Source of the DNA: a virus
Reading direction: 5' to 3' (one strand)
Virus record (IMG/VR): IMGVR_UViG_3300011116_000381
Span: 1-20,975 of that record
DNA length: 20,975 nucleotides
This document shows positions 6,646-20,975 of this stretch, one piece after another. Below the pieces are notes generated by a model. That model was not told the origin of the DNA, ran no database searches, and worked only from the letters and a program-made list of their open reading frames with translations. Position numbers and translations under genes: made by a program. Positions within the stretch are counted from its first letter, which is position 1. Every line of letters begins with the position of its first letter.

Positions 6646-8859
6646 TTATATTGTTCCTAGTATGTTTCTCTTTGCCAAGGAACTAGATGTAATTCCTGAT
6701 GAACCTTGGAAGGCACGGGTCTCTAGTTCTTTCAAACGCTTGCGACGTTCTGACTCAAGTCCGCTGAACTGTTCTTTCTCAAGTTCTGACTGAACCTGGC
6801 CCATAGTTGCAACGCGTTGGTTCTCATAGATTCCTGAAAGTTTAGTTGTTGTACCAAGTTGAGCGGCAATATTTTCAAAGCCTTGAGCAGCAAGTGCAGA
6901 TGCTTCTGTCTCTGACATGCCTTTCTCAACCAATGTCTGTGCAAGAGCCTTGAATCGTTCACTATTGAACTGAATACCAGACTGTGCACGACGAACAGCC
7001 TCGGCAGCAAATGCACCAGTTGTTCGGTTAATATTGAGTTGTTCTTGACCAATCTTAGAATCCATAAAGAAATCCTTTAGGTCTGCAGATGTAGCAATAT
7101 AGCCAAGTTTCTGCAATGCCTCGACGTATGATGGGTCTTGATTGTTTGACTTGAGGGTTGCAATGTTTGCTCGCTCAGCCAAATCTTTAGCAGATACATT
7201 GTTCTTGGTGTATTGCTTTAGGGATTCCTTGTCAAGATACTTTTTACTTAGACCGTACTTGTCTACTACCTCTTTGTAACCCTCAACTGCATTGAATAGT
7301 TCATTAGCAGATTTAGGGGTTACTAGACCTTCATTAAGATAGCCATACTCAGCATAGAATGGAGATTCAATCTTTGTTCCATTTTTAAGTGTATAGTCTT
7401 TATTGTTTAAGAATATCTCTGTAGCATTGTCGTAGTCTAGACCTTCTTTAAGAAGGCTAGTTAAGAACGATGTAGAAGAGTCAAGAATTGATGAAGTAAA
7501 GCCTAAGGAACGAAGTGATGCTTTAAGATAAGTTATATTAGTTGTAGGGCCTGTATCACCTGTGGCACCTGTGGCACCTGTAGCCCCACCTGTTGCACCT
7601 ATAGCACCAGTAAGTCCTGTGGCTCCTGCTTTAGGAATAATTGCAGATGTACCATCAGAATAAGTTACTGTCTTGCTACCATCAGGATTATCAACAGTTA
7701 GGACAATTGTTTTTGTTCCAAGTGTTGCTGGTGCTGCTTCTACAATTGTATTTGCACCTACTGCACTTGATGCAGTTGCTGCGGTTGTGCCACCTGCAGA
7801 ACGAGCACCATACTTTGCTTGATTCTCTGGAGTGTCTGGAGCCTGATAGAGTTTCCACTCACCAGTATTAACTCCACCAATCCATGAGTAATAGTTAAGC
7901 ATACCATTTGCAGGAGCAGGTGCTTCTGGACGAACAGCAAAGTTCTTCATTGGGTCAGTTGCTGCACGTGCTGCTGCATCGGCAGCCATTGCTGCTTCAC
8001 GTGCTGCTTGAATGTAATCAGTCTTTTCTGTCTGAGTCATTGCTGCACGTTGTTCAGGAGTCAAATCAGCATAAGCAGTCTTTGTTGGGTCTGGCTTTGT
8101 ATCTACTGCTCCCGTGGCTCCTGTTGCACTACCTGTTGCACCAGTAGCCCCAGTTGCGGTACTCTGTGTTCCAGTAGCGCCTACTGATGCTGCTTGTACA
8201 CCAGCCAATGTTGTTGTATTAATAGTTGTTGCTGCAGGAGTCGGAGTAACGGGAGTCGCCACTGGCGTAGGAGTTACTGTAGGTGCTGCTGCTGCATCTG
8301 CTGCTTCTTTTGCTTTGAATGCTTGATATGTTGCTGCTTGTTCTGTTGCTAACTTTAATGCTGCAGCCTGTGCTGCAGCAGTCTTTGCTGCTGCGGCGGT
8401 GGCGGCGGCGTCTGCTTGAGCCTTAGCATCTGCTGCAGCCTTATCTGCTGCTGCCTTTGCATCCGCAAGTGCTTTATCTGCCGCTGCTTTATCTGCAGCA
8501 GTTTTTATCGCTGCTGCTTGGGCAGCCGCTTCTGCCTGTGCCTTTGCAGCCGCTTGTGCTGCTGCGGCAGCAAATGCTGCATTGATAGCAGCCTGTGCTG
8601 CGGCGGCAGGCTTTGCATCTTCAATAGCCTTTTGCGCTGCCGCTGCTTGTGCATTTGCAATTGCTTGTGCTTGTGCTGCGGCTGCGGCCTGTGCTGCTGC
8701 CTGCGCTTGTGCTGCGGCTATTGCTGCTGCATTTTGTGAATCTGTTACGCTAGAAACAGGTGCTGTAGGCGCTGGTGTTGGAGTAGGTGTTGTAGTAGTG
8801 GTTGTGGTGGGTGCAGTTGAACCTTCACCATCAACCATCATTCTTGTACTAATAGCCAT
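6646..8859 (-). CDS. Ala-rich, collagen-like internal virion protein, 737 aa
   Basis: Regions in order: a Thr/Pro linker (residues 13-37); a very Ala-rich helix (43-192, repeated AAAQA and AADKA units, probably an extended coiled coil); a second Thr/Pro linker (193-211); short collagen-like GATG triplets (226-251); a mixed region with YADLTPEQRAA; a second GATG block (411-437); and a globular helical C-terminal part (440-737). The C-terminal part has FLNNKDYTLKNG, YLNEGLVTPKSANELFNAVEGY and GLSKKYLDKESLKQYTKN, a pattern I associate with internal proteins of aquatic and actinobacterial phages, and it ends SGLESERRKRLKELETRAFQGSSGI. The ATG at 8859 overlaps the previous stop as TAATG. Internal or ejected location is inferred from similarity and position; no lytic-enzyme motif is seen. 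Confidence 0.8.
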   Translation of the reverse strand: MAISTRMMVDGEGSTAPTTTTTTTPTPTPAPTAPVSSVTDSQNAAAIAAAQAQAAAQAAAAAQAQAIANAQAAAAQKAIEDAKPAAAAQAAINAAFAAAAAQAAAKAQAEAAAQAAAIKTAADKAAADKALADAKAAADKAAADAKAQADAAATAAAAKTAAAQAAALKLATEQAATYQAFKAKEAADAAAAPTVTPTPVATPVTPTPAATTINTTTLAGVQAASVGATGTQSTATGATGATGSATGATGAVDTKPDPTKTAYADLTPEQRAAMTQTEKTDYIQAAREAAMAADAAARAATDPMKNFAVRPEAPAPANGMLNYYSWIGGVNTGEWKLYQAPDTPENQAKYGARSAGGTTAATASSAVGANTIVEAAPATLGTKTIVLTVDNPDGSKTVTYSDGTSAIIPKAGATGLTGAIGATGGATGATGATGDTGPTTNITYLKASLRSLGFTSSILDSSTSFLTSLLKEGLDYDNATEIFLNNKDYTLKNGTKIESPFYAEYGYLNEGLVTPKSANELFNAVEGYKEVVDKYGLSKKYLDKESLKQYTKNNVSAKDLAERANIATLKSNNQDPSYVEALQKLGYIATSADLKDFFMDSKIGQEQLNINRTTGAFAAEAVRRAQSGIQFNSERFKALAQTLVEKGMSETEASALAAQGFENIAAQLGTTTKLSGIYENQRVATMGQVQSELEKEQFSGLESERRKRLKELETRAFQGSSGITSSSLAKRNILGTI

Positions 8860-10236: not shown

Positions 10237-13200
10237 TTAGCCCTTCAATTGTCCTGCGAATACTCCGTAGTACATACGAGAGAATGATGGATTTTCTAAC
10301 ATTAGTTCCTCAGCCAATGAAACAAGTTCATTGCGCATTAGCGTTGCCAATCCACCCTTTGCAGTTAGTTCTGCATAGTTAGATACCTTTGCTTTATTTA
10401 ACAAAGTTTGGAACTCTTGATACTTAGGATAGAAAGTTGAAACTTGGTTATACACAGAAGACTGAGTAAATGCTGGGTCTTGTAGTGCTTCACCAATACG
10501 AGCAATACGCTCCTGAGCAGTGCCAGTTGTGACAGTATCAGGTGGTCGAGAACCACCAAATTCCTTGTTTAACTTGTCAATCTGCTCTTTGTACCAGAAG
10601 TCTGGGTAGCGATTAGCAATCTGCTGTTCTGCAATTTGGTCCTTAAGCATTGAATAAACCATGCTCTCAGCCTCATTAGAAAGTTCTGTAGCAGATAGGC
10701 TACGACGTGCACCAGTTGTTTTTTGCCAGTTATAGTACTTAAGTGAATACTCGCCACCAGGGAAGAAGTAAGGAACTACATCTCCAGGAGAACGGGCATA
10801 TTTATCAGCAGCACTTGGGTTATTGTTCAACCAAGTCCATGCATCATCAGTACCACGTACGTTGCCTGTAGAGCCACCTAGTGCAATAAGCAAGTTATTA
10901 GCACCAAATGTCTCAGCAAACTGGTATACAGACTTGCCATAATCACCTGGGTTCTTGCGAGAAATCGCATCCCAATGTGAGTAAAGCATTGTCAAAGTCA
11001 TAAAGTTCATCTTGTTGTCAGGATTCTTAATCTTTGCAAGAATCTCTGTAGATGGTGTAGCAGGTGAGATGCTTTGGAACAGTGCGTTCAAGAAGCCAAC
11101 CTCACGAGATAGTGATTCAGCATCATGGAATAACTTTGTACGCGCACTATCACTTGCTAATGGATTAGCACCATAATCACCTGTAGAGGCTAGGTATGAT
11201 GCCCAGTCCTTAATACCACGCTGAACCATTGTTTCATCACCCATACGGTAAGCAATAGTCTTGCGTAGCCATGCTGGAAACACGAAGTCTTCTGCAGATT
11301 TAGGTGCACCAAATGGTGTAATAATGTCACGTAAGATATCATTAACTGGACCAAATGCTGTAGTCTTTCCACTTGCAGCATACAATCCCTGTAGTGCAGG
11401 TCCAATACCAGGCAATCCTGGGTTAACCTGACCAAATGCTAAGTTAAGTGACTGTACTGGTGCAGTAATCTGCATAGCACTACGCATATCTACGTTCATG
11501 CCAGCCATAGCACCCATTACAGAGCCTACTAGAGGAATCTTAAACTGCTTATTAGTTGACCCTGGCTCTGTGTAAAAGAAACCCTGTTGGTCGTCATAAG
11601 TCATACCAGTCACATCATAAAGGGTGTTTGAACCCTGTTGATTGAGTGAGTTGTATGCCTTACCAAACTTGATAGCAGGAACTGGGTTAGCCCAGAATAA
11701 TTCGTTCCACTTGTTAAGTGTATTGTAGTGTGCCTGTGCGAATGGGAATGCTAAACGCCATGCGTTAGCCCATTGATTCTGACGAGCAGCATCATAGAAT
11801 AGGTCTTTAACATACTTAGATGCCTCACGAGCAGCCATCTGATGTAGTGTCTGTAGGTCAGTTCCACCTTCTTGTACATAACCAGGCTTTTCACGCTTCT
11901 TAACTTCTTGTTGAAGCAGACGAAGAGTAGGATGCTTGCGTCCAATAGTCTTCTTGCCAAATACTACAGGTGCTAAAGAGTTGTTTGCATTCTTAAGCAT
12001 TGTGGTTAGGTCTTCTGTCTTGACCATAGGCACATATCCACCCATAAAGTCCCAGTATGACATTTGATATTCAGGACCAAAGTTATACTTGCTCTCTAGA
12101 CGAGTTGCTAGTTCAAAGAACTTATCAACTATGTAAGTAATCTCTTTAGGTCCAGCCTGTCCAATAGCGCGCTCTGTAGTAACGAATACGTTAGAACCAG
12201 CAACATCATCAGGTGTAAAGTTCTTCTCAATAGCCTTAAGGAATTGCTTTTCAGCAATATCCATTTCAGCAGTATTCTTGATATTCTGTGCATAAGGTGC
12301 ACGAATCTTAGTTAGTTTTCCATTATTTTCTACAACAACTTCACCATTGCGTAACAGTTCTAGTACTAAGTGTGACTTAGGACCACTACCAGCAAGCGCC
12401 TTGATGTTACCTGCAACAGTATCTACCTGCTTCTCATCAAAGAGATAGACAAAGATATTGTCTGCATTGAAGTTATCTGGAGTAAACTCTGCAGTTGGGT
12501 CCTTAAGGAAAAGATTACGAATGCCTTCATTCTTCTGGAATACACCAGTTGAGAAGTCCTTAAGCACATTGTTAGGAGCATCATAGTTGTCAATAAGTTT
12601 CTGTACATACCCACGTTTGGCTGCTTCATCACCATTCTGCATCAACTTGACTACATCTGGGATAAACTTATCAGCCACAAAGTTGTTCATGGTGTAGGCA
12701 AAGCCTTCCATAAACTGTGGATGGCTAGAATCTACTACCTTATAAAACTTAAAGACTTGTGAATGTTTACTAGAGCGCATATCAGATACTGATTGCTTAC
12801 GATTAATCTGTGCACGCCAACCACGAACTGCATCTGATAGTTCTTCTTCTGCATCTGCATTCTTAAAACTGTTACCCATTGCATCATACTGATACTTACC
12901 CCAACGAGATACCAACTTCTGGAACTGATTACCTTGTGGGTCTGCAATTACCATTGATAAGAATGACAGAGGGCTAGAAATAATATTGTTATGTCCTGAG
13001 AACAACTGACGCATCTGCATTTCTGCAATGTTACGGAAGATGTATGAGAATCGGAATACTAACTGTGCTGTACGCCATACATCGCCAAACTCTTCTGCAA
13101 GTACTTTACCTTGACGAACACGACCATAAACAGCATTAGCCTGGAAGTTAGTAAGAGTCTTTAGGACTGCTTTGCTATCAGGAAGGTTAATCATATCGCG

Positions 13201-16050
13201 CAATAACTGGTGTTCTAGAATTGCATCAGGCAATTGAACAGCATCTCCGCCAGCATTAACAATTGTAGGTACGCGGTTTTCTGCAATTGAACCTAGGCTA
13301 TAAGCCTTTTCGATTGCTTCTTCCTTGCCAGTAATCTTTGTTGAACGCTTAAGGATATCCATCTCTTCAGGAGTAAGGCTGAGTTTCTTGCCAATCTCTT
13401 CAGTAATATCTGTAATGCTTTTTTCAATTGCTACAGCACGTTCTTGATTTGTAGTAGCCTTGAATAAATTGCGCTGGGCAGCAGCAATAATTGCTTCTTG
13501 ACGGTCTTTGCCAAGCACTGTCTTAAATGCTGCAGAACTAATCCAGTCTTCAATTCCGTTTACAGTACCTGATGCATCACCTAAATTAAGCATTGTTCCA
13601 CGTACATAGAATCGGTTAAACGACTTCTCAATGGCTTCTGCCATGCGTACTGGTGTAAATGATACAGGGTCTACAAGACGTGCTAGAGGGTTTGCTGTCA
13701 TCTTACCAGCCTGTGCCTTAAGTCCTAGTGACAAAGAAGCCTTAAGATTACGTGGGTCTGTACTTTCTACACCCATATGGTTAAGGAATACCTTTAGTAC
13801 ATCATCAGATGTTTTAGCAGCAACTAATGAATCTACCATCTCTTTATCTAGTTTCTTACCAAAGAATCGATGAATAGTAAGTGCATCATCTTCTTTTGCT
13901 ACAATCTCTGCAATTTCATTAAAGCGACGACCAAGCATGAACTGCAATGGCTTGCTAAAGTCTTTGCCAACTTGTCCACCAAATGCATCAACAATTCCAA
14001 TTTCAGAACTAAGTTGCTCACGTAGTGCAGTCTTTTCTGAGATTTCAGTTTCAATTTTAAGAATCTTCTTAAGACCCTTGTACTCTGGGTCATTAATAAG
14101 TTCGCGTAGAATCTCTGGGTCTTTATTAGCCAAGTCACGAAGAGATGAAATATAGGCAATACGGTCATCTAATTTAATCTGCTGATTAACAATGTCATCT
14201 AATTGGTTCTGACGTTTAGCAAGTGATGTTTCTGTATCCTGAATAGAACCAAGTAACTTAGCAATATTAGGACCAAGATTAGTTGGGTCAGTAATTTCTG
14301 CTGCAGCCATAGCAACCTCTGCGCGAGATGCAGCAAGTCGTGGTGTATTAGTGATTACAAAACCACCCTTACCACCATAGATTGAACGAATGTTTGAAAA
14401 ACCGTCAACTTTCCAGATTTCAGCAACAGCATCTGAGATTTTAGCCATAACAGCAGGGTTCTTAATCTGTGCTACACGACCAATCAAGGAACCAAGGCTT
14501 TCACCTTGTACAAGTTCATCCCCCGCTGTATATAAAGACCCTAAGAAGCCTTCAAAGTTTGCTGTGTCTTGCTTAAGTGAACTAGCAAGGTCATCAAAAG
14601 CCTGCATAGCAGAAACATCGCCAGTTTCAGTAGCAAATTGGTCTAACTTATCAATTAATTGTGCACGACGAGCAGACTCTTCTGTAATCTCATCTAGGGA
14701 TGCACCCTTAAATGTGTCTGCAAGGTCAAGCAACTTAAAATCTTCGCTACCTTTAGCAGTCATAACGTACTCATCTAGACCAGAAGCACCAACTGTAATT
14801 TTTCCTGCTTCAGGAAGTTCATCTGTTATGATTAATCCTTCAAAGAATCCACCAGTGTTCTTCATATCGGCAGACAAAGTATCTACTGCTTTAGTTAGTT
14901 CACCATTTTGAACCTTAGGATTATATACAAACCACTCAGCAACCTTATTTGGTGAAAGAGTTGCAGCAGCAGTTGGGTCAGTTGCAAGATTTGAAAAGAT
15001 ATCTTTCTCAGTATTGAGCATTTTTGCAACAGTCTTAGACATAAGTTGTGACTTTTGCTTTTCAATTGTGCTAACTTCAAGAGAAGTCTTCTGATATTCA
15101 GATGAAAGACGCTTGTATCCCTTTGCTGCTTCCTTCTTACCAAGAGCCTCAAGTTCCTGAATGTCCTTGGTTACGCTAGCAACCTTCTCATCCTTAAGTG
15201 CTTGCTGTCCTGCTGTTGATAAAGGTGAGACTATTTCCTTAAATTTTGAAATCTTCTTACCTTGGCTGATAACTTTAGTAGCAGCGCCTGCACCAACCCA
15301 TGTAGATGGGTCAAGTGCGATGTTCAAAGTTGCATCAAGCAATCCTGACATGACTTTGTATGCTGTTGAATCTGGAGTTGCGCCAATTGACTTGGCTGCG
15401 AAACGTCCAATAGTAAATGATTGACCATTAATCTTGCCATAGGCAGCCATAGCCTTAGCCTGGTCTTTGCCTACACGTGATTCAGGCCCAATAAAGAATC
15501 CAGAACCTGTATCTACACCAGGCTTACCACCAACAACATCTGAAATTAAAGAACCAAACTGTGTATTCTTTCCACCAAGTGTTGCTAAATCTTTTACAAA
15601 CTGTCCTGCATTACCTGCAGATACGTCACGTGTAAGTGTAGTTACAAGGTCATATGGCTGACGTAGCATAGCAAAACCTACACGAGTAGCACCCTTGATA
15701 GGGTCATAGATTGCATTACTAAATGCTGAACCAATAGAACCTAAAAGTCCACGGTCTTTTTTAACATTAGACTTAATCTTCTCAACGTTCATTGCATCGT
15801 TTTTGAGTTGAGTGATACCGTCTACTGAAACAATCTTACCGATACCAGGAGTATCAACAGTTAATCCCTGCTTGACCATAGACATTACTAGGTCTTTACT
15901 CATATTTGGATAGCGCGAAGTAATTGCGTTAAAGTTATCAAATTTATCTGGAGTCAAGGTAGCAGCCTGCATGGAAACCATACGGCGCATTGTCTCGCCT
16001 TGGTTATTATACAGTGACTGAGCAGCAGGTGATAATGTTGGATTAGCCAC
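10237..16050 (-). CDS. Giant virion protein, 1937 aa, probably internal/ejected
   Basis: An N-terminal region (1-235) includes RGLLGSIGSAFSNAIYDPIKGATRVG, a possible amphipathic helix. LLDATLNIALDPSTWVGAGAATK follows at ~237-259, with coiled coils at ~285-350 and ~610-695. Around 1000-1030 is SYIFRNIAEMQMRQLFSG, and around 1430-1475 is WRLAFPFAQAHYNTLNKWNELFWANP. I recognise these last three phrases as recurring in very large virion proteins of aquatic and actinobacterial phages, whose function is not established. I looked for single-subunit RNA polymerase, lysozyme, transglycosylase and ADP-ribosyltransferase motifs and found none. The GTG start at 16050 overlaps the previous TAG as TAGTG with only a weak upstream purine run, so translation probably depends on re-initiation. 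Size and position suggest a packaged internal protein. Confidence 0.85.
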   Translation of the reverse strand: MANPTLSPAAQSLYNNQGETMRRMVSMQAATLTPDKFDNFNAITSRYPNMSKDLVMSMVKQGLTVDTPGIGKIVSVDGITQLKNDAMNVEKIKSNVKKDRGLLGSIGSAFSNAIYDPIKGATRVGFAMLRQPYDLVTTLTRDVSAGNAGQFVKDLATLGGKNTQFGSLISDVVGGKPGVDTGSGFFIGPESRVGKDQAKAMAAYGKINGQSFTIGRFAAKSIGATPDSTAYKVMSGLLDATLNIALDPSTWVGAGAATKVISQGKKISKFKEIVSPLSTAGQQALKDEKVASVTKDIQELEALGKKEAAKGYKRLSSEYQKTSLEVSTIEKQKSQLMSKTVAKMLNTEKDIFSNLATDPTAAATLSPNKVAEWFVYNPKVQNGELTKAVDTLSADMKNTGGFFEGLIITDELPEAGKITVGASGLDEYVMTAKGSEDFKLLDLADTFKGASLDEITEESARRAQLIDKLDQFATETGDVSAMQAFDDLASSLKQDTANFEGFLGSLYTAGDELVQGESLGSLIGRVAQIKNPAVMAKISDAVAEIWKVDGFSNIRSIYGGKGGFVITNTPRLAASRAEVAMAAAEITDPTNLGPNIAKLLGSIQDTETSLAKRQNQLDDIVNQQIKLDDRIAYISSLRDLANKDPEILRELINDPEYKGLKKILKIETEISEKTALREQLSSEIGIVDAFGGQVGKDFSKPLQFMLGRRFNEIAEIVAKEDDALTIHRFFGKKLDKEMVDSLVAAKTSDDVLKVFLNHMGVESTDPRNLKASLSLGLKAQAGKMTANPLARLVDPVSFTPVRMAEAIEKSFNRFYVRGTMLNLGDASGTVNGIEDWISSAAFKTVLGKDRQEAIIAAAQRNLFKATTNQERAVAIEKSITDITEEIGKKLSLTPEEMDILKRSTKITGKEEAIEKAYSLGSIAENRVPTIVNAGGDAVQLPDAILEHQLLRDMINLPDSKAVLKTLTNFQANAVYGRVRQGKVLAEEFGDVWRTAQLVFRFSYIFRNIAEMQMRQLFSGHNNIISSPLSFLSMVIADPQGNQFQKLVSRWGKYQYDAMGNSFKNADAEEELSDAVRGWRAQINRKQSVSDMRSSKHSQVFKFYKVVDSSHPQFMEGFAYTMNNFVADKFIPDVVKLMQNGDEAAKRGYVQKLIDNYDAPNNVLKDFSTGVFQKNEGIRNLFLKDPTAEFTPDNFNADNIFVYLFDEKQVDTVAGNIKALAGSGPKSHLVLELLRNGEVVVENNGKLTKIRAPYAQNIKNTAEMDIAEKQFLKAIEKNFTPDDVAGSNVFVTTERAIGQAGPKEITYIVDKFFELATRLESKYNFGPEYQMSYWDFMGGYVPMVKTEDLTTMLKNANNSLAPVVFGKKTIGRKHPTLRLLQQEVKKREKPGYVQEGGTDLQTLHQMAAREASKYVKDLFYDAARQNQWANAWRLAFPFAQAHYNTLNKWNELFWANPVPAIKFGKAYNSLNQQGSNTLYDVTGMTYDDQQGFFYTEPGSTNKQFKIPLVGSVMGAMAGMNVDMRSAMQITAPVQSLNLAFGQVNPGLPGIGPALQGLYAASGKTTAFGPVNDILRDIITPFGAPKSAEDFVFPAWLRKTIAYRMGDETMVQRGIKDWASYLASTGDYGANPLASDSARTKLFHDAESLSREVGFLNALFQSISPATPSTEILAKIKNPDNKMNFMTLTMLYSHWDAISRKNPGDYGKSVYQFAETFGANNLLIALGGSTGNVRGTDDAWTWLNNNPSAADKYARSPGDVVPYFFPGGEYSLKYYNWQKTTGARRSLSATELSNEAESMVYSMLKDQIAEQQIANRYPDFWYKEQIDKLNKEFGGSRPPDTVTTGTAQERIARIGEALQDPAFTQSSVYNQVSTFYPKYQEFQTLLNKAKVSNYAELTAKGGLATLMRNELVSLAEELMLENPSFSRMYYGVFAGQLKG

Positions 16051-16714: not shown

Positions 16715-18448
16715 TTATCCTAGTCCTGCTAACATTGTTGCTAAATCTGCTGGGGGTTGTTGAGGGGCTCCGCCAGAAGGTTGTCCAGGAGCCGCGGGGG
16801 ATGTGGGCGATTGCTCAACTGGGCCTTGTGTGCCTGGCGGAGCCATCTCTGGCTGAGTTGGTTGTTGAGGTGCTTCCACCTTAAACACTGCCAACGCAGC
16901 AGCCTCTATGCTCTCCCCTTTACGACGACGTTCAATAACGTCGGCAATATTTTGGATTAACTTAGTAGGGTCTTGACCCTGTGCTACCATTGCTGGAATT
17001 GCTTGTGCACTTGCAGTAATCGATGCAGTAAGATTCTCACGCATCTTTTCAATCTCAATACGTTGTTCTTCCATAGTAACGTTAACGCTCCATGGCAACT
17101 CACGACGAATGAAGTCCTTAGATACTAAGTCAGCACCTAATGCTTGTAGAGAGAAAATCAGAGCACGCGAAGGGTCTAATCCAGCCATCAAGCCATATCG
17201 GACTTCTACCGAAGTATCGCCCTTAATGTCCTTGCTTGGCATGTACTTTAACTCGTACGGTGTGCCTTGCGCTACGCCTCTGACACTCTTTTCCTTATTG
17301 AAAAGGAGTTCATCCATTTCAAAACATAACTTGATTACATCTTCCAACACCTCAGCAAGAACTGTTTGACCAGCCTTAATCTGAGAGTCGAAAGCACCAA
17401 GTAATGCTTGGACACCTTGACCAGTGATAACACTTGCGTCAATGTTTCCAGTTCTACCTTCAGGATATCGAGCACCTAAACGTAATTCAGATTGGAGTGC
17501 TGATTGCTCCTGGAAAGTAGCCGTGGGAATATCCAAACGGACACGCCCAACACCATTAGGTTGTGAAGTGCGGATGATTGCATCTGGGCCCATAGGCATA
17601 TCCAGAACATCGTCAGGCACAACGAGAGGGGCTTGGATTGACTTTTCAGCCGCTTCCATAGCCAAGTTTGCAAAACGTGCACGTGCAAGTTGTACAAAGA
17701 TTACATCATCAAACTGTCCACGAGGCTTACCATCAATAGATGGACGCTCTGCAATAACTACTGTCATTCTACCCATAGGGTTAATAGCACTGCTAAGGAC
17801 AAGGTTCTTGCGTGATGGTACATACAAAGTAATATTATTCTTATCCATGTAGCGGATAATTTCTAGTTCATTGTTTAGGTTCTGTTCAAAACCAAACTGA
17901 CCAAGGATTGCTCTCTGATGCTCAGGAAACTCATTGACGAGTTCACCCATGCTCTTTACATAACGCTTTGCGTATGCAACCAAACGACCAAAACGGTCAC
18001 GCTCATAGTAGACACCAGTTGGGTCTTCTACGCGGATGCGTGGCATATCGTTTTCCCAGTCTGCCTCAACGTGGACAGGTAAGAAACCATAGGAGAAGTA
18101 CTGGTCAGAACCACCATACATTTGAGTTTGTAGACGTGAATGATAAACATAGTTGTTAGCAATCATGCTGCGCTTATCAGCAAAAGCACGTGCTCTATCT
18201 GATGTTACATTTGTAGTCGAGCAGTTGATTGATGGCAATGGAGCCAATACTTCTGCTAAATCGCGTGCTGCAACGTCAACAAAGTTAGCAACCATGGCAT
18301 GAGGCATACCATCTGGAAATAGGTCAGGATAAATCTCAACCATGCGTCCTTGACGCACAGCAAGCACATTCCCCATTTGTGAATCACGCTCTACGGCGCG
18401 ATGCTTCATAGCATCTACGCGACGCGCAATTAAGTCAATGTCTGCCAT
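16715..18448 (-). CDS. Portal protein, 577 aa
   Basis: The N-terminal phrase MVANFVDVAARDLAEVLAPLPSINC, the central QPNGVGRVRLDIPTATFQEQSALQSELRLGARYPEGRTGNIDAS segment and the helix QALLGAFDSQIKAGQTVLAEVLEDVIKLCFEMDE follow the plan of large portal proteins of actinobacterial phages, which form the dodecameric DNA channel at one head vertex. The C-terminal ~60 residues are a Pro/Gln-rich tail, likely disordered. I take the ATG at 18448 (MADIDLIARRVDAM) because AGGA lies about six bases upstream and just after the terminase stop. A longer frame from 18484 would overlap the terminase by 29 bases with no clear ribosome site. The gene directly follows the terminase, as usual. Confidence 0.9.
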   Translation of the reverse strand: MADIDLIARRVDAMKHRAVERDSQMGNVLAVRQGRMVEIYPDLFPDGMPHAMVANFVDVAARDLAEVLAPLPSINCSTTNVTSDRARAFADKRSMIANNYVYHSRLQTQMYGGSDQYFSYGFLPVHVEADWENDMPRIRVEDPTGVYYERDRFGRLVAYAKRYVKSMGELVNEFPEHQRAILGQFGFEQNLNNELEIIRYMDKNNITLYVPSRKNLVLSSAINPMGRMTVVIAERPSIDGKPRGQFDDVIFVQLARARFANLAMEAAEKSIQAPLVVPDDVLDMPMGPDAIIRTSQPNGVGRVRLDIPTATFQEQSALQSELRLGARYPEGRTGNIDASVITGQGVQALLGAFDSQIKAGQTVLAEVLEDVIKLCFEMDELLFNKEKSVRGVAQGTPYELKYMPSKDIKGDTSVEVRYGLMAGLDPSRALIFSLQALGADLVSKDFIRRELPWSVNVTMEEQRIEIEKMRENLTASITASAQAIPAMVAQGQDPTKLIQNIADVIERRRKGESIEAAALAVFKVEAPQQPTQPEMAPPGTQGPVEQSPTSPAAPGQPSGGAPQQPPADLATMLAGLG

Positions 18449-18455
18449 TTTTATC

Positions 18456-20327
18456 CTATTCGTTTTCGCCAAATTCATAGTCATTTAGATTGACCATATA
18501 GCGTTCTCGTTGTTGTCTTGGTGTTGCCCATTTATTAGGTAAGTGGCTTTGACCCATACGGGTTGTGCCAATGATTTCGCGTGCTCGTAGTTCACAGAAC
18601 CACAAAGCCATTACGCAGTCAGTCTTACCTTTAGTATCAGGCTTCCAAGTAATCAATTGCTGGATTAAAGCCTTAATGCCTTCTGAACCATCTTGTGATG
18701 GCAATTCCATTAAATTATCATCTTGATGTGTATTACCACGCATAGTCCCAAATAGACCAGACATAGCAGCCACACCAAAACCTGTATCCCATTTATTTCT
18801 ACCTGTGAACTGGCTAGAGAATCTCACACCAGCAGAGGCAAGAAAGTTACGCAAGACTTCATCTAAGGCATAAGCCTTCTGATGAGCATTGGTTTCAATA
18901 CGTAGTTCTTGTGGGCGATACTTATCAACCCACTCTTCAATCAACTTCTGAATCTTTTGCGGTGTAGGCTCCTGCATATTCTCTACATCCAAGATGTATC
19001 GCTTACGAGTTTGCCTATCTACAGTCATAACAACTGCTGCGGTATTGCCACTCATAGCAGGGTCTAGACCCATAATGGTATACCAGTGACCACGTTCATC
19101 AGGATGTCCAGCAGCACCAGGCTTTAGAGGTCCTCGTTTGCGCATCCTATTGACAGAACCTTGGACACACGCAGGGGGAAAGATTGAATCCTCTTGGACG
19201 TCTTGCTGTTGATAAACAAGTGCCCAAGCAGAAGGAGAGACTTCTGAACGTCTACGAAACAGTGCTGGCCCATTCCATTTAGGATAAAGACCGTCTTCAT
19301 CGGGTAGGATGTTCTCATCTGAACCCTCCCATGGGATATTAGACTTTGGCCAAAGGGTAATCCATTTTTCGGGGTCATCGTCATACTCCAATACTGCAGG
19401 CATCGACATGTATGTAAAGGGAGTTTTGCCACCAGTCCAGTGGTCAGGGTTTCTAATCTCGCGGTATAAATCATTTGAGGCGATACGTGTGCCTACGATA
19501 AGTAACTTACCAGAATCACCTAGACGAGTTACAACGTCTCGCTGCAACCACAATAGTTGCTTTTCCCATTCATGAGCGTTAGATGTAGTAACAACGTCGT
19601 CAAGAATGATAAGGTTAGAACGCGCACCAGTGATTTGACCACCAACACCCAGAGCCTGAACAGTCGGGTCCTTTTCGGTGGAATCGCGGCTGAGATAAAT
19701 ACGGTCAGCCTTCCAGGTATCAGCATCTTCTTTCCATCCTCCAGCAGAACCATAGACACTCTGCATCTTAGCCCAGCGTTCATGAGATAGGCGCTGCTTG
19801 ATAGAGTAGAGATACTCCTTGGCACGCTCTTGAGTTTTGGAGACGATAGTAATCTTAATATTGGGGTCCATGGCAATACGGTAGACACAGTAGTTGACTG
19901 TGATAACTGTAGACTTAGCGTGCTCAGGCGGAACGTTTAAGAGCAAACGCTTAGCCGAGGCTGGCTCATAGACCATGCTATTGTGGATGTAACTTGGCTC
20001 ACGTCCTTCTAGGATATCAATCCAGGAACGGTGGTGAGGAAAAATCGGGCTATCTAGAAACTCTGCTGAGAACTGCTCAAAGCCTATCTTGTACTTGACA
20101 TCTCCTGTGGTAATGCTGAGAACCTTTTCGCCCTCTAAACGGGCTTTCTCCAAGGACTTCATAAACTGCTCGTCCTGGCGCCAGGTCTTCATGACATCTG
20201 GCTTACGGTCAGACCTTGCTATGGCATCATCTAGGGATAGTCCCTGACTTACAAACTCAATTACCTTTGCCTTAGCCTCTTTGAGTGCTATGACATTATG
20301 GTGTTCTTTACCTTTGCCTGCTGCCAT
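18456..20327 (-). CDS. terL: Terminase large subunit with N-terminal helix-turn-helix segment, 623 aa
   Basis: Residues ~17-64 (IEFVSQGLSLDDAIARSDRK..MKTWRQDEQFMKSLEKAR) look like the helix-turn-helix DNA-binding part of small terminases. An ATPase domain follows, with a Walker A-like VPPEHAKST (132-140) that lacks the usual glycines, Walker B LIILDD (239-244) and a coupling motif LLIVGTR (275-281). The nuclease domain has GLDPAMSG (Asp422), LRIETNAHQK (Glu478) and KTDCVMALWF (Asp570), the acidic triad of RNase H-like terminase nucleases. The protein pumps DNA into the prohead and cuts it. The ATG at 20327 is preceded by AAGGGGAG at only about three bases, which is unusually close. No separate small-terminase gene is present next to it in the window. 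Confidence 0.93.
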   Translation of the reverse strand: MAAGKGKEHHNVIALKEAKAKVIEFVSQGLSLDDAIARSDRKPDVMKTWRQDEQFMKSLEKARLEGEKVLSITTGDVKYKIGFEQFSAEFLDSPIFPHHRSWIDILEGREPSYIHNSMVYEPASAKRLLLNVPPEHAKSTVITVNYCVYRIAMDPNIKITIVSKTQERAKEYLYSIKQRLSHERWAKMQSVYGSAGGWKEDADTWKADRIYLSRDSTEKDPTVQALGVGGQITGARSNLIILDDVVTTSNAHEWEKQLLWLQRDVVTRLGDSGKLLIVGTRIASNDLYREIRNPDHWTGGKTPFTYMSMPAVLEYDDDPEKWITLWPKSNIPWEGSDENILPDEDGLYPKWNGPALFRRRSEVSPSAWALVYQQQDVQEDSIFPPACVQGSVNRMRKRGPLKPGAAGHPDERGHWYTIMGLDPAMSGNTAAVVMTVDRQTRKRYILDVENMQEPTPQKIQKLIEEWVDKYRPQELRIETNAHQKAYALDEVLRNFLASAGVRFSSQFTGRNKWDTGFGVAAMSGLFGTMRGNTHQDDNLMELPSQDGSEGIKALIQQLITWKPDTKGKTDCVMALWFCELRAREIIGTTRMGQSHLPNKWATPRQQRERYMVNLNDYEFGENE

Positions 20328-20341
20328 GACTCCCCTTATTA

Positions 20342-20364
20342 AACCCTCATATAAAACCAGGGTT
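20342..20364. repeat. Inverted repeat just upstream of the terminase start
   Basis: AACCCT and AGGGTT can pair around an 11-base AT-rich loop, 14 bases before the terminase ATG. In the transcript it could form next to the ribosome site. Confidence 0.4.
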
Positions 20365-20382
20365 ATTTCCCCCTTATCGCTC

Positions 20383-20398
20383 GGCTCGCTTGCGAGCC
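20383..20398. repeat. Perfect inverted repeat GGCTCGC/GCGAGCC
   Basis: GGCTCGCTTGCGAGCC has seven-base arms around TT, so it is strong as DNA or RNA hairpin. No T-run follows on either strand, so it is not an intrinsic terminator. It would lie in the 5' leader of the terminase mRNA if the proposed promoter is used. Confidence 0.55.
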
Positions 20399-20421
20399 TC
20401 GCTACCCCCTCGTATGTTCGT

Positions 20422-20441
20422 GGCTGGCATCAAAGCCAGCC
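20422..20441. repeat. Perfect inverted repeat GGCTGGC/GCCAGCC
   Basis: GGCTGGC and GCCAGCC (seven bases each) flank a six-base ATCAAA loop. It also falls in the presumed terminase leader and has no adjoining T-run. Confidence 0.55.
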
Positions 20442-20524
20442 CTTACGGTCTGTCTTAGCCACCCACTCACAGTCAGATAAACTCACTCTGTAGTAGTCGT
20501 TCGTTTATCGTTACATATATACTA

Positions 20525-20593
20525 ACCCGTTCAAATATAAAAACCGAACGGTACTATATATTAAATGTGACGAAAGTCACCCGTTTTATTATA
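20525..20593. promoter_or_regulatory. Operator-like ACCCGTT repeats around the candidate promoter
   Basis: ACCCGTT occurs at 20525-20531 and again at 20579-20585, each followed by a similar AT-rich stretch ending TATA (12 of 15 positions agree over 20525-20539 and 20579-20593). An inverted copy, GAACGGT, lies at 20546-20552, so CCGTTC and GAACGG also form a hairpin at 20527-20551. The copies flank or touch the proposed -35 and -10 elements, the usual arrangement for repressor or activator binding. No regulator gene is in the window. Confidence 0.35.
20553..20580 (-). promoter_or_regulatory. Candidate promoter for the terminase/structural operon
   Basis: On the minus strand GTGACT (four of six matches to TTGACA) is separated by 16 bases from TATAGT (five of six matches to TATAAT). 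The start site would be near 20546, giving a leader of about 220 bases before the terminase ATG that contains three strong hairpins. The -35 overlaps the small hairpin GTGAC-GAAA-GTCAC. It is the best sigma70-like pair I found here, but an AT-rich region yields such matches by chance. Confidence 0.35.
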
Positions 20594-20619
20594 CTAATAC
20601 GGACATACGGGACACTAGA

Positions 20620-20648
20620 GGCCAAATACTGTAAAAATATTTTTGGCC
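20620..20648. repeat. Inverted repeat GGCCAAA/TTTGGCC
   Basis: Seven-base arms flank a 15-base AT-rich interior. It lies upstream of the candidate promoter and could be a protein-binding site or part of an unwinding region. Confidence 0.4.
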
Positions 20649-20662
20649 GATAGTGTATACCT

Positions 20663-20705
20663 ATAGCCAGGGGCTATTAATAGCACTGGGGTCGCTGGGG
20701 CGACC
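20663..20705. repeat. Two adjacent small hairpins
   Basis: ATAGCC/GGCTAT (20663-20677, three-base loop) is followed by GGTCGC/GCGACC (20690-20705, TGGG loop). After the second, on the plus strand, ACGAAGTTTTTC follows, so a weak plus-strand terminator facing incoming transcription is possible. Confidence 0.4.
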
Positions 20706-20767
20706 ACGAAGTTTTTCAGCGAATGATGAGCGCGAGGGACGAGCGCATTCGCGTCTTTATCCTCTAT

Positions 20768-20784
20768 CCCGTCTGCAAGACGGG
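20768..20784. repeat. Perfect hairpin CCCGTCT-GCA-AGACGGG
   Basis: Seven-base arms surround a three-base loop, and it ends three bases before the large imperfect palindrome. On the plus strand a T-rich stretch (GGCTTTTAG) starts a few bases later, giving a weak terminator reading. Confidence 0.5.
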
Positions 20785-20786
20785 CA

Positions 20787-20822
20787 GGCTTTTAGTATTT
20801 CGCGTACGCGATAATACAAGCC
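20787..20822. repeat. 36-nt imperfect palindrome centred on TCGCGTACGCGA
   Basis: Matching arms are nested: GGCTT/AAGCC outside, GTATT/AATAC in the middle, and the perfect 12-base palindrome TCGCGTACGCGA in the centre. The only interruptions are TTA on the left arm and one T on the right. The symmetry covers nearly the whole 36 bases, so it is more likely a protein-binding, origin or resolution site, or a cruciform, than chance. Confidence 0.6.
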
Positions 20823-20834
20823 ATCGGCAGACCC

Positions 20835-20854
20835 GAGCGAGCGAAGCGAGCGAG
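20835..20854. repeat. GAGC repeat forming a mirror repeat
   Basis: GAGCGAGCGAAGCGAGCGAG reads the same in both directions on one strand and consists of four-base GAGC units broken by one extra A. It is a purine-rich low-complexity element; no function is claimed. Confidence 0.5.
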
Positions 20855-20927
20855 GCGATTTTTGTTTGTGTTGGGCGAATAAGGGGCTGAGCGTGTGGGG
20901 TGACTATCTGCCCGCCTGTTGGCTGTT

Positions 20928-20957
20928 CGGGCTTCTGCGGGCTTCTGGTGGCTTCTG
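20928..20957. repeat. Three tandem 10-bp repeats at the window edge
   Basis: CGGGCTTCTG occurs twice in a row (20928-20937, 20938-20947), followed by a third copy, GTGGCTTCTG. A 10-bp period places each copy on the same face of the helix, as iterons or terminase-binding repeats often do. The array may continue beyond the edge, since CTGCGGGC closes the window. Confidence 0.5.
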
Positions 20958-20975
20958 GCGGGTATCCCTGCGGGC

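Follow-up and report, generated by a model that had tools for sequence, protein, structure and literature searches.

A conserved three-hairpin leader before the large terminase gene, beside a probable genome end and a putative late promoter, in a phage lineage probably infecting actinobacteria

The final 648 nt of the viral record IMGVR_UViG_3300011116_000381 (positions 1 to 20,975 of that record, 20,975 bases in all, hereafter the window) lie upstream of the terminase gene terL and hold, side by side, a probable genome terminus, a core resembling a promoter and a leader of three hairpins. The structured leader is real and conserved, and more than a hundred related phages keep the hairpin element. 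It is also undescribed: our search of open-licence papers found no description of it, and Rfam 15 (4227 families) gave no match above the gathering cut-off, with two sub-threshold matches only (E 2.9 and 3.4). With slightly better than even confidence, we read the region as a composite of genome terminus, late promoter and structured late-operon leader in a freshwater actinophage lineage that has the Planktophila phages and the Streptomyces Beephvirinae as relatives. The leader itself is conserved and covarying, has tandem GA mismatches, lies before terL and occurs once in each genome checked.

Genes for terL, the portal and the major capsid protein were recognised in the window. terL, the large terminase subunit and first gene of the late operon, occupies 18456 to 20327 on the minus strand (PHROG 38, E 7.5e-69; Pfam Terminase_6C), and no convincing gene was found from 20328 to the end of the record at 20975, so the limits that the initial annotation had given for its hairpin array, 20328 to 20975, were correct. 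No small terminase gene was recognised beside terL (window 16715-20975). The genome type is of about 40 kb; the window also encodes a 1937-aa protein at 10237-16050 without PHROG or Pfam match, and predicted structural-region proteins with collagen-like GPTG/GATG repeat tracts (1508-2284 and 6646-8859). Relatives were collected as a terL set of 80 IMG/VR contigs, in which clade A is the large group adjoining the window phage, a clade B set of 80 contigs, whose terL is about 61% identical to that of clade A, and a pattern set of 110 loci newly gathered by the pattern of hairpin P3, some of which are contigs of the earlier sets. Among cultured phages, the relatives are E7 and F5 of Planktophila (OX376640/OX376641; PMC10202952) and the Streptomyces Beephvirinae, so the host of the window phage is probably an actinobacterium.

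The dense hairpins described before were real. With perfect arms of at least 6, loops of 3-20 and a length of 648 nt, we counted 11 perfect hairpins, against a mean of 2.3 and a maximum of 8 in dinucleotide shuffles (0 of 500 reached 11) and a mean of 3.2 and a maximum of 7 in 648-nt segments of the rest of the contig. RNA folding gave z-scores of -2.2 for 206 nt of the late strand, -3.4 for 378 nt of the opposite strand and -2.6 for the whole. The three repeats spaced by 10 bp were exact (GGCTTCTG at 20930, 20940 and 20950; period 10 was recovered), the long imperfect palindrome was present at about 20719-20752, as was a 45-nt stem at 20612-20656, and the unusual composition was confirmed, the GC content being 0.38 in the AT-rich core and 0.555 over 20700-20899. 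The features of 20328-20975 are:

20379-20402, minus strand: hairpin P3, GC-GA-GGCTCG(CAAG)CGAGCC-GA-GC, with tandem GA/GA and a variable inner stem
20416-20470, minus strand: hairpin P2, GGCTGGC...GCCAGCC, with flanks GT-GA-G...C-GA-AC
20476-20509, minus strand: hairpin P1, GATAAAC-GA-AC...GT-GA-GTTTATC, the first stem past the TATA element
20516-20533, minus strand: TGAACGGGTTAGTATATA, the promoter-like core, conserved, one copy per genome
20527-20551, minus strand: inverted repeat CCGTTC-N13-GAACGG, overlapping the promoter-like core
20567-20580, no strand assigned: GTGACTTTCGTCAC palindrome (GTGA-N6-TCAC), about 53-59 nt before TATATA
20590-20606, plus strand: TATACTAATACGGACAT, a candidate -10 for a divergent promoter that, taken with GTGACG for its -35, matches the consensus at 9/12
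20612-20656, plus strand: stem ACACTA-GA-GGCCAAA...TTTGGCC-GA-TAGTGT, with GA/GA on the plus strand
20663-20677, no strand assigned: hairpin ATAGCC(AGG)GGCTAT
20690-20705, no strand assigned: hairpin GGTCGC(TGGG)GCGACC, then conserved CCCAGT on the terL strand
20719-20752, no strand assigned: long imperfect palindrome, GCGAATG...CATTCGC
20834-20858, no strand assigned: CGAG-rich hairpin and short repeats
20864-20870, minus strand: CACAAAC copy
20896-20904, minus strand: putative cut region GTCACCCCA, homologue of GTCNCCCAA, placed by homology only
20928-20962, minus strand: 10-bp repeats (CAGAAGCCCG)

Read 5' to 3' on the terL strand, the order in the clade is GATAGTCNCCCAACACAAAC, with short tandem repeats ahead of it in many members, then hairpins that vary and conserved blocks (GCGACCCCAGT and ACT(A/C)TC...AATATTTTTnCAGTATT), then GTGA-N6-TCAC in part of the clade, CGTTC-N13-GAACGGGTTAnnnTATATA, P1, P2, P3, a G-rich stretch and terL. 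The counterparts of the 10-bp repeats are GAAGCC repeats in near relatives and other short tandem units in others, and at a place similar to 20834-20858 relatives have TC/TC hairpins, which means GA/GA on the opposite strand. That the 45-nt stem is a universal hairpin was rejected, since many relatives lack its 3' arm, although its core, AATATTTTTnCAGTATT on the terL strand, is widely conserved. The initial annotation had named conservation of the arms in related phages as the test of its observation, and this held for three hairpins, while the other hairpins were not universal.

The three stems of the leader are preserved by matched changes on both arms. We took P1 (an outer stem, GA/GA and RC/GY) and P3 (GY, GA/GA and the variable inner stem) from 64 sequences, and 863 of the 878 pair cells were Watson-Crick, with 6 G-U and 2 A-C. 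Mapped on the terL tree, 12 of 14 positions showed pair changes, with up to 14 changes at one position by parsimony. There were 19 distinct outer stems of P1 among the 64 sequences, and P3 was Watson-Crick at all 6 positions counted in 61 of 61 extracted sequences, with pair types varying at 5 of them. A second count, which included P2, used 34 distinct leaders aligned with MAFFT; 98.5% of the cells were paired, two-sided changes were found at 16 of 20 pairs, and two-sided cells numbered 108 against 2 one-sided. For P2, 97% of the cells were paired, with two-sided changes at 5 of 7 pairs. The paired share dropped to 24-36% in slid-partner controls, which preserve relatedness, and was reached by none of 500 shuffles. 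As the leaders are related to one another, shuffle counts cannot be taken as probabilities.

Downstream of the promoter-like core, GA/GA clearly dominated among 2x2 mismatches (71 of 87 distinct hairpins, late strand, against 8 distinct stems with TC/TC), whereas upstream of the core TC/TC was found in 10 and GA/GA in none. The 8 stems with TC/TC are P2 of one set of relatives, with GA/GA on the opposite strand. The stems have the YGAR context on both strands, which favours sheared tandem G.A pairs, and tandem YGAR loops are characteristic of folded RNA. Such loops, the fixed place of the stems after the promoter-like core and directly before terL, and the predominance of GA/GA on the late strand downstream of that core speak for action as RNA, which we favour, but not strongly, over action as single-stranded DNA. 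The near lack of G-U is unusual for RNA: G-U made up 6 of 869 standard pairs in the stems (0.7%), compared with 54 of 444 (12%) in the tRNA acceptor stems of five Streptomyces phages used as a benchmark. This lack would suit hairpins folded in single-stranded DNA, as a replication origin, a role that the initial annotation had considered, or a lagging-strand start, with stems on different strands either side of the AT-rich core, and so would the GA/GA strand switch at that core (Fisher p 9e-9, calculated on sequences that are not independent), the joint occurrence of repeats, AT-rich core and hairpins, and the opposite-strand P2. In that case phage genome ends would carry a new class of signal in folded single-stranded DNA, made of tandem-GA hairpins on opposite strands either side of the AT-rich core, kept by strict Watson-Crick covariation and read in replication or packaging instead of as RNA, and we consider this unlikely. 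A further idea, that each GA hairpin faces along the transcript it belongs to, was weakened by the opposite-strand P2 and by those relatives whose ORF left of the site runs rightward.

Among contigs reading towards terL, an excess have their end in this region. Nine distinct contigs (L017, L021, L025, L056, L440, L448, L453, L470 and G017, the same as L497) start exactly at the C of CACAAAC, some 350-400 nt upstream, and three (L036, L433, L464) start 9 nt earlier, so that GTCNCCCAA is the 9 nt bounded by contig ends of relatives. For the first four contigs alone, the chance of such stacked ends was about 2e-4 under the local density. The search for early-side contig ends had few contigs and yielded one exact end, that of L316, which ends exactly at the corresponding point. 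The simplest reading of these ends would be a real DNA end at the CACAAAC motif, with a 9-nt stagger possible, and by homology the cut site of the window would be near 20896-20904. L476 and L485 start at other CACAAAC copies. Copies of the motif, often 14 nt apart, were found in L089 (1548-2506), L003 (3477-4466) and other clade-A loci, and besides the probable end upstream of terL there are further copies on the far side of an early gene of about 220 aa; ends may be marked by the motif and not by a single locus. No direct terminal repeat of about 250 bp was seen in the contigs, but a real repeat would collapse in assemblies. Exact end repeats of 123 nt (G001, G016) and 127 nt (G003, G018, G022, G026) occur at unrelated genome places and are likely assembler k-mer overlaps. 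The 123-nt repeat of G001, which had the look of a terminal repeat with its end in this region, was rejected as one, with the same length found elsewhere in G016 and 127 in others.

Four cultured Streptomyces Beephvirinae (Kumquat, WRightOn, FlowerPower, ZooBear) resemble the lineage of the window phage in having terL first, divergent early genes and a genome end upstream, as is probable here, and in a GTGA-N6-TCAC about 53 nt before TATATA. They have direct terminal repeats of 253-274 bp, not a short overhang, and lack a match to the P1-P3 model. In the three of them that have TATATA, this element follows the right boundary of the repeat by 125-134 nt, so their genome-end locus appears to match that of the window, while the type of end perhaps does not. 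The packaging-site reading of the initial annotation is supported in this way as a probable one for the upstream part, by contig ends stacked on one base and by terminal repeats at the same locus in the cultured phages, but the array as a whole is several things side by side. The whole array might be the packaging site, with the conserved stems part of terminase recognition and the hairpins and repeats guiding the terminase. In favour of this are the contig ends stacked at the junction of GTCNCCCAA and CACAAAC, the short tandem repeats that adjoin the end site and the terminal repeats at this locus in the Streptomyces relatives; however, the left part alone is tied to ends, P1-P3 lie some 350-500 nt off, past the promoter-like core, and their sequence varies freely with pairing kept, unlike a double-stranded DNA recognition site, which makes this reading doubtful.

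A covariance model built from the leaders found one strong copy per clade-A genome checked (88-110 bits), that of the window being at 20377-20523 on the minus strand (110 bits, E 2.7e-24). Matches in clade C were weak (19-23 bits), and there was no convincing match in clade B, E7 or Beephvirinae. terL was downstream at 109 of the 110 P3-pattern loci, and at the remaining one the contig stops 32 nt past the element. In L063 an insert of about 0.45 kb separates P3 from terL, and the element is kept. An ordinary 5' untranslated region, whose hairpins merely shield the mRNA or the terL ribosome site, would agree with the median of 21 nt between the end of the element and the terL start and with the fact that clades B and C and phage E7 have different hairpins in that position, but it is improbable, as tandem GA loops and strict pairing maintained in more than 60 sequences point to a specific partner.

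Upstream of P1-P3, the GTTC-N13-GAACGGGTTAnnnTATATA motif is near-invariant in the clade. The promoter-like core was single-copy in 14 of 15 records of one set and 13 of 14 of another, and a recurrent phage promoter was rejected on the ground that the core occurs once per genome. The GTTC/GAAC arms are kept in clades A and B, clade C has GTTAC/GTAAC at the same place, and the core is common to clade A, clade B and the cultured Planktophila phage E7. We infer that TATATA would be the -10 of a late promoter; a -35 for it was not recognisable. A promoter scan gave GTGACT-16-TATAGT as an alternative on the late strand, in which case the inverted repeat would sit inside the RNA, and GTGACG-17-TATACT on the other strand, the two sharing the palindrome; promoter matches of this type were no more frequent than in shuffles. 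The palindrome itself, GTGA-N6-TCAC, is a candidate CRP/FNR-type operator found in part of clade A and, at matching distance, in the Streptomyces relatives, and is absent in others. A sigma70-ECF-like protein is encoded by the phages and is a candidate for late transcription.

In the composite reading, the order towards terL would start with short repeats beside a probable cut in the DNA between GATAGTCNCCCAA and CACAAAC, then variable hairpins, then a putative single-copy late promoter made of the inverted repeat GTTC-N13-GAAC and TATATA, with the GTGA-N6-TCAC palindrome upstream of it in part of the clade, and then a predicted untranslated leader of about 110-150 nt with three tandem-G.A hairpins ahead of the terL ribosome site. 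The leader would be transcribed, and its hairpins would act in cis on the emerging late transcript, where they may serve transcription read-through or protection of the 5' end of the late mRNA; this particular job is the least certain step. Terminator-like sites were few on the late strand, so antitermination is not obviously needed.

Hairpins in phage leader RNAs downstream of promoters are known from HK022, whose antitermination RNAs putL and putR are about 70 nt each, with putL just downstream of its promoter (PMC9378689), and the window leader, behind its predicted promoter-like core, can be likened to them by description. The put RNAs have two stem-loops and an RNA triplex in early transcripts of a lambdoid phage (PMC9378689), whereas the window leader has three tandem-GA hairpins in the late operon of an actinophage. 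The Planktophila phages E7 and F5 are near in terL (58-59% aa), and E7 shares the GTTC-N13-GAACGGGTTA core, but their leader hairpins are without tandem GA and E7 is without a model match. The manA and wcaG RNAs are structured RNAs mostly derived from metagenomes, some of them phage-borne (PMC2864571); the element of the window is likewise structured, known mostly from metagenomes and carried by phages, but differs in that no Rfam family reaches its cut-off in the window. If the composite reading is true, phages probably of abundant freshwater actinobacteria, as judged from their kinship with the Planktophila phages, carry an undescribed structured element linked both with the control of late genes and with a likely end of the genome. 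Strict covariation together with scarce G-U makes the question of RNA versus DNA cleanly separable, and the contig-end signal is a cheap route to the termini of uncultured phages.

The region had also been proposed as a boundary between late and early operons, which fits G002-G004, where an early gene is divergent, but not some other relatives, which seemingly have a rightward ORF at that place; in L048, L053, L058-L060 and L035 this apparent ORF lies left of CACAAAC and ends in the TAG of GCAGATAG. In G002-G004 (L085, L088-L089, L091-L092), GTACGAT(T/A)ATCGTAC or GTACGGAATCCGTAC palindromes are repeated before successive early genes, a probable operator array with half-sites differing between phages.
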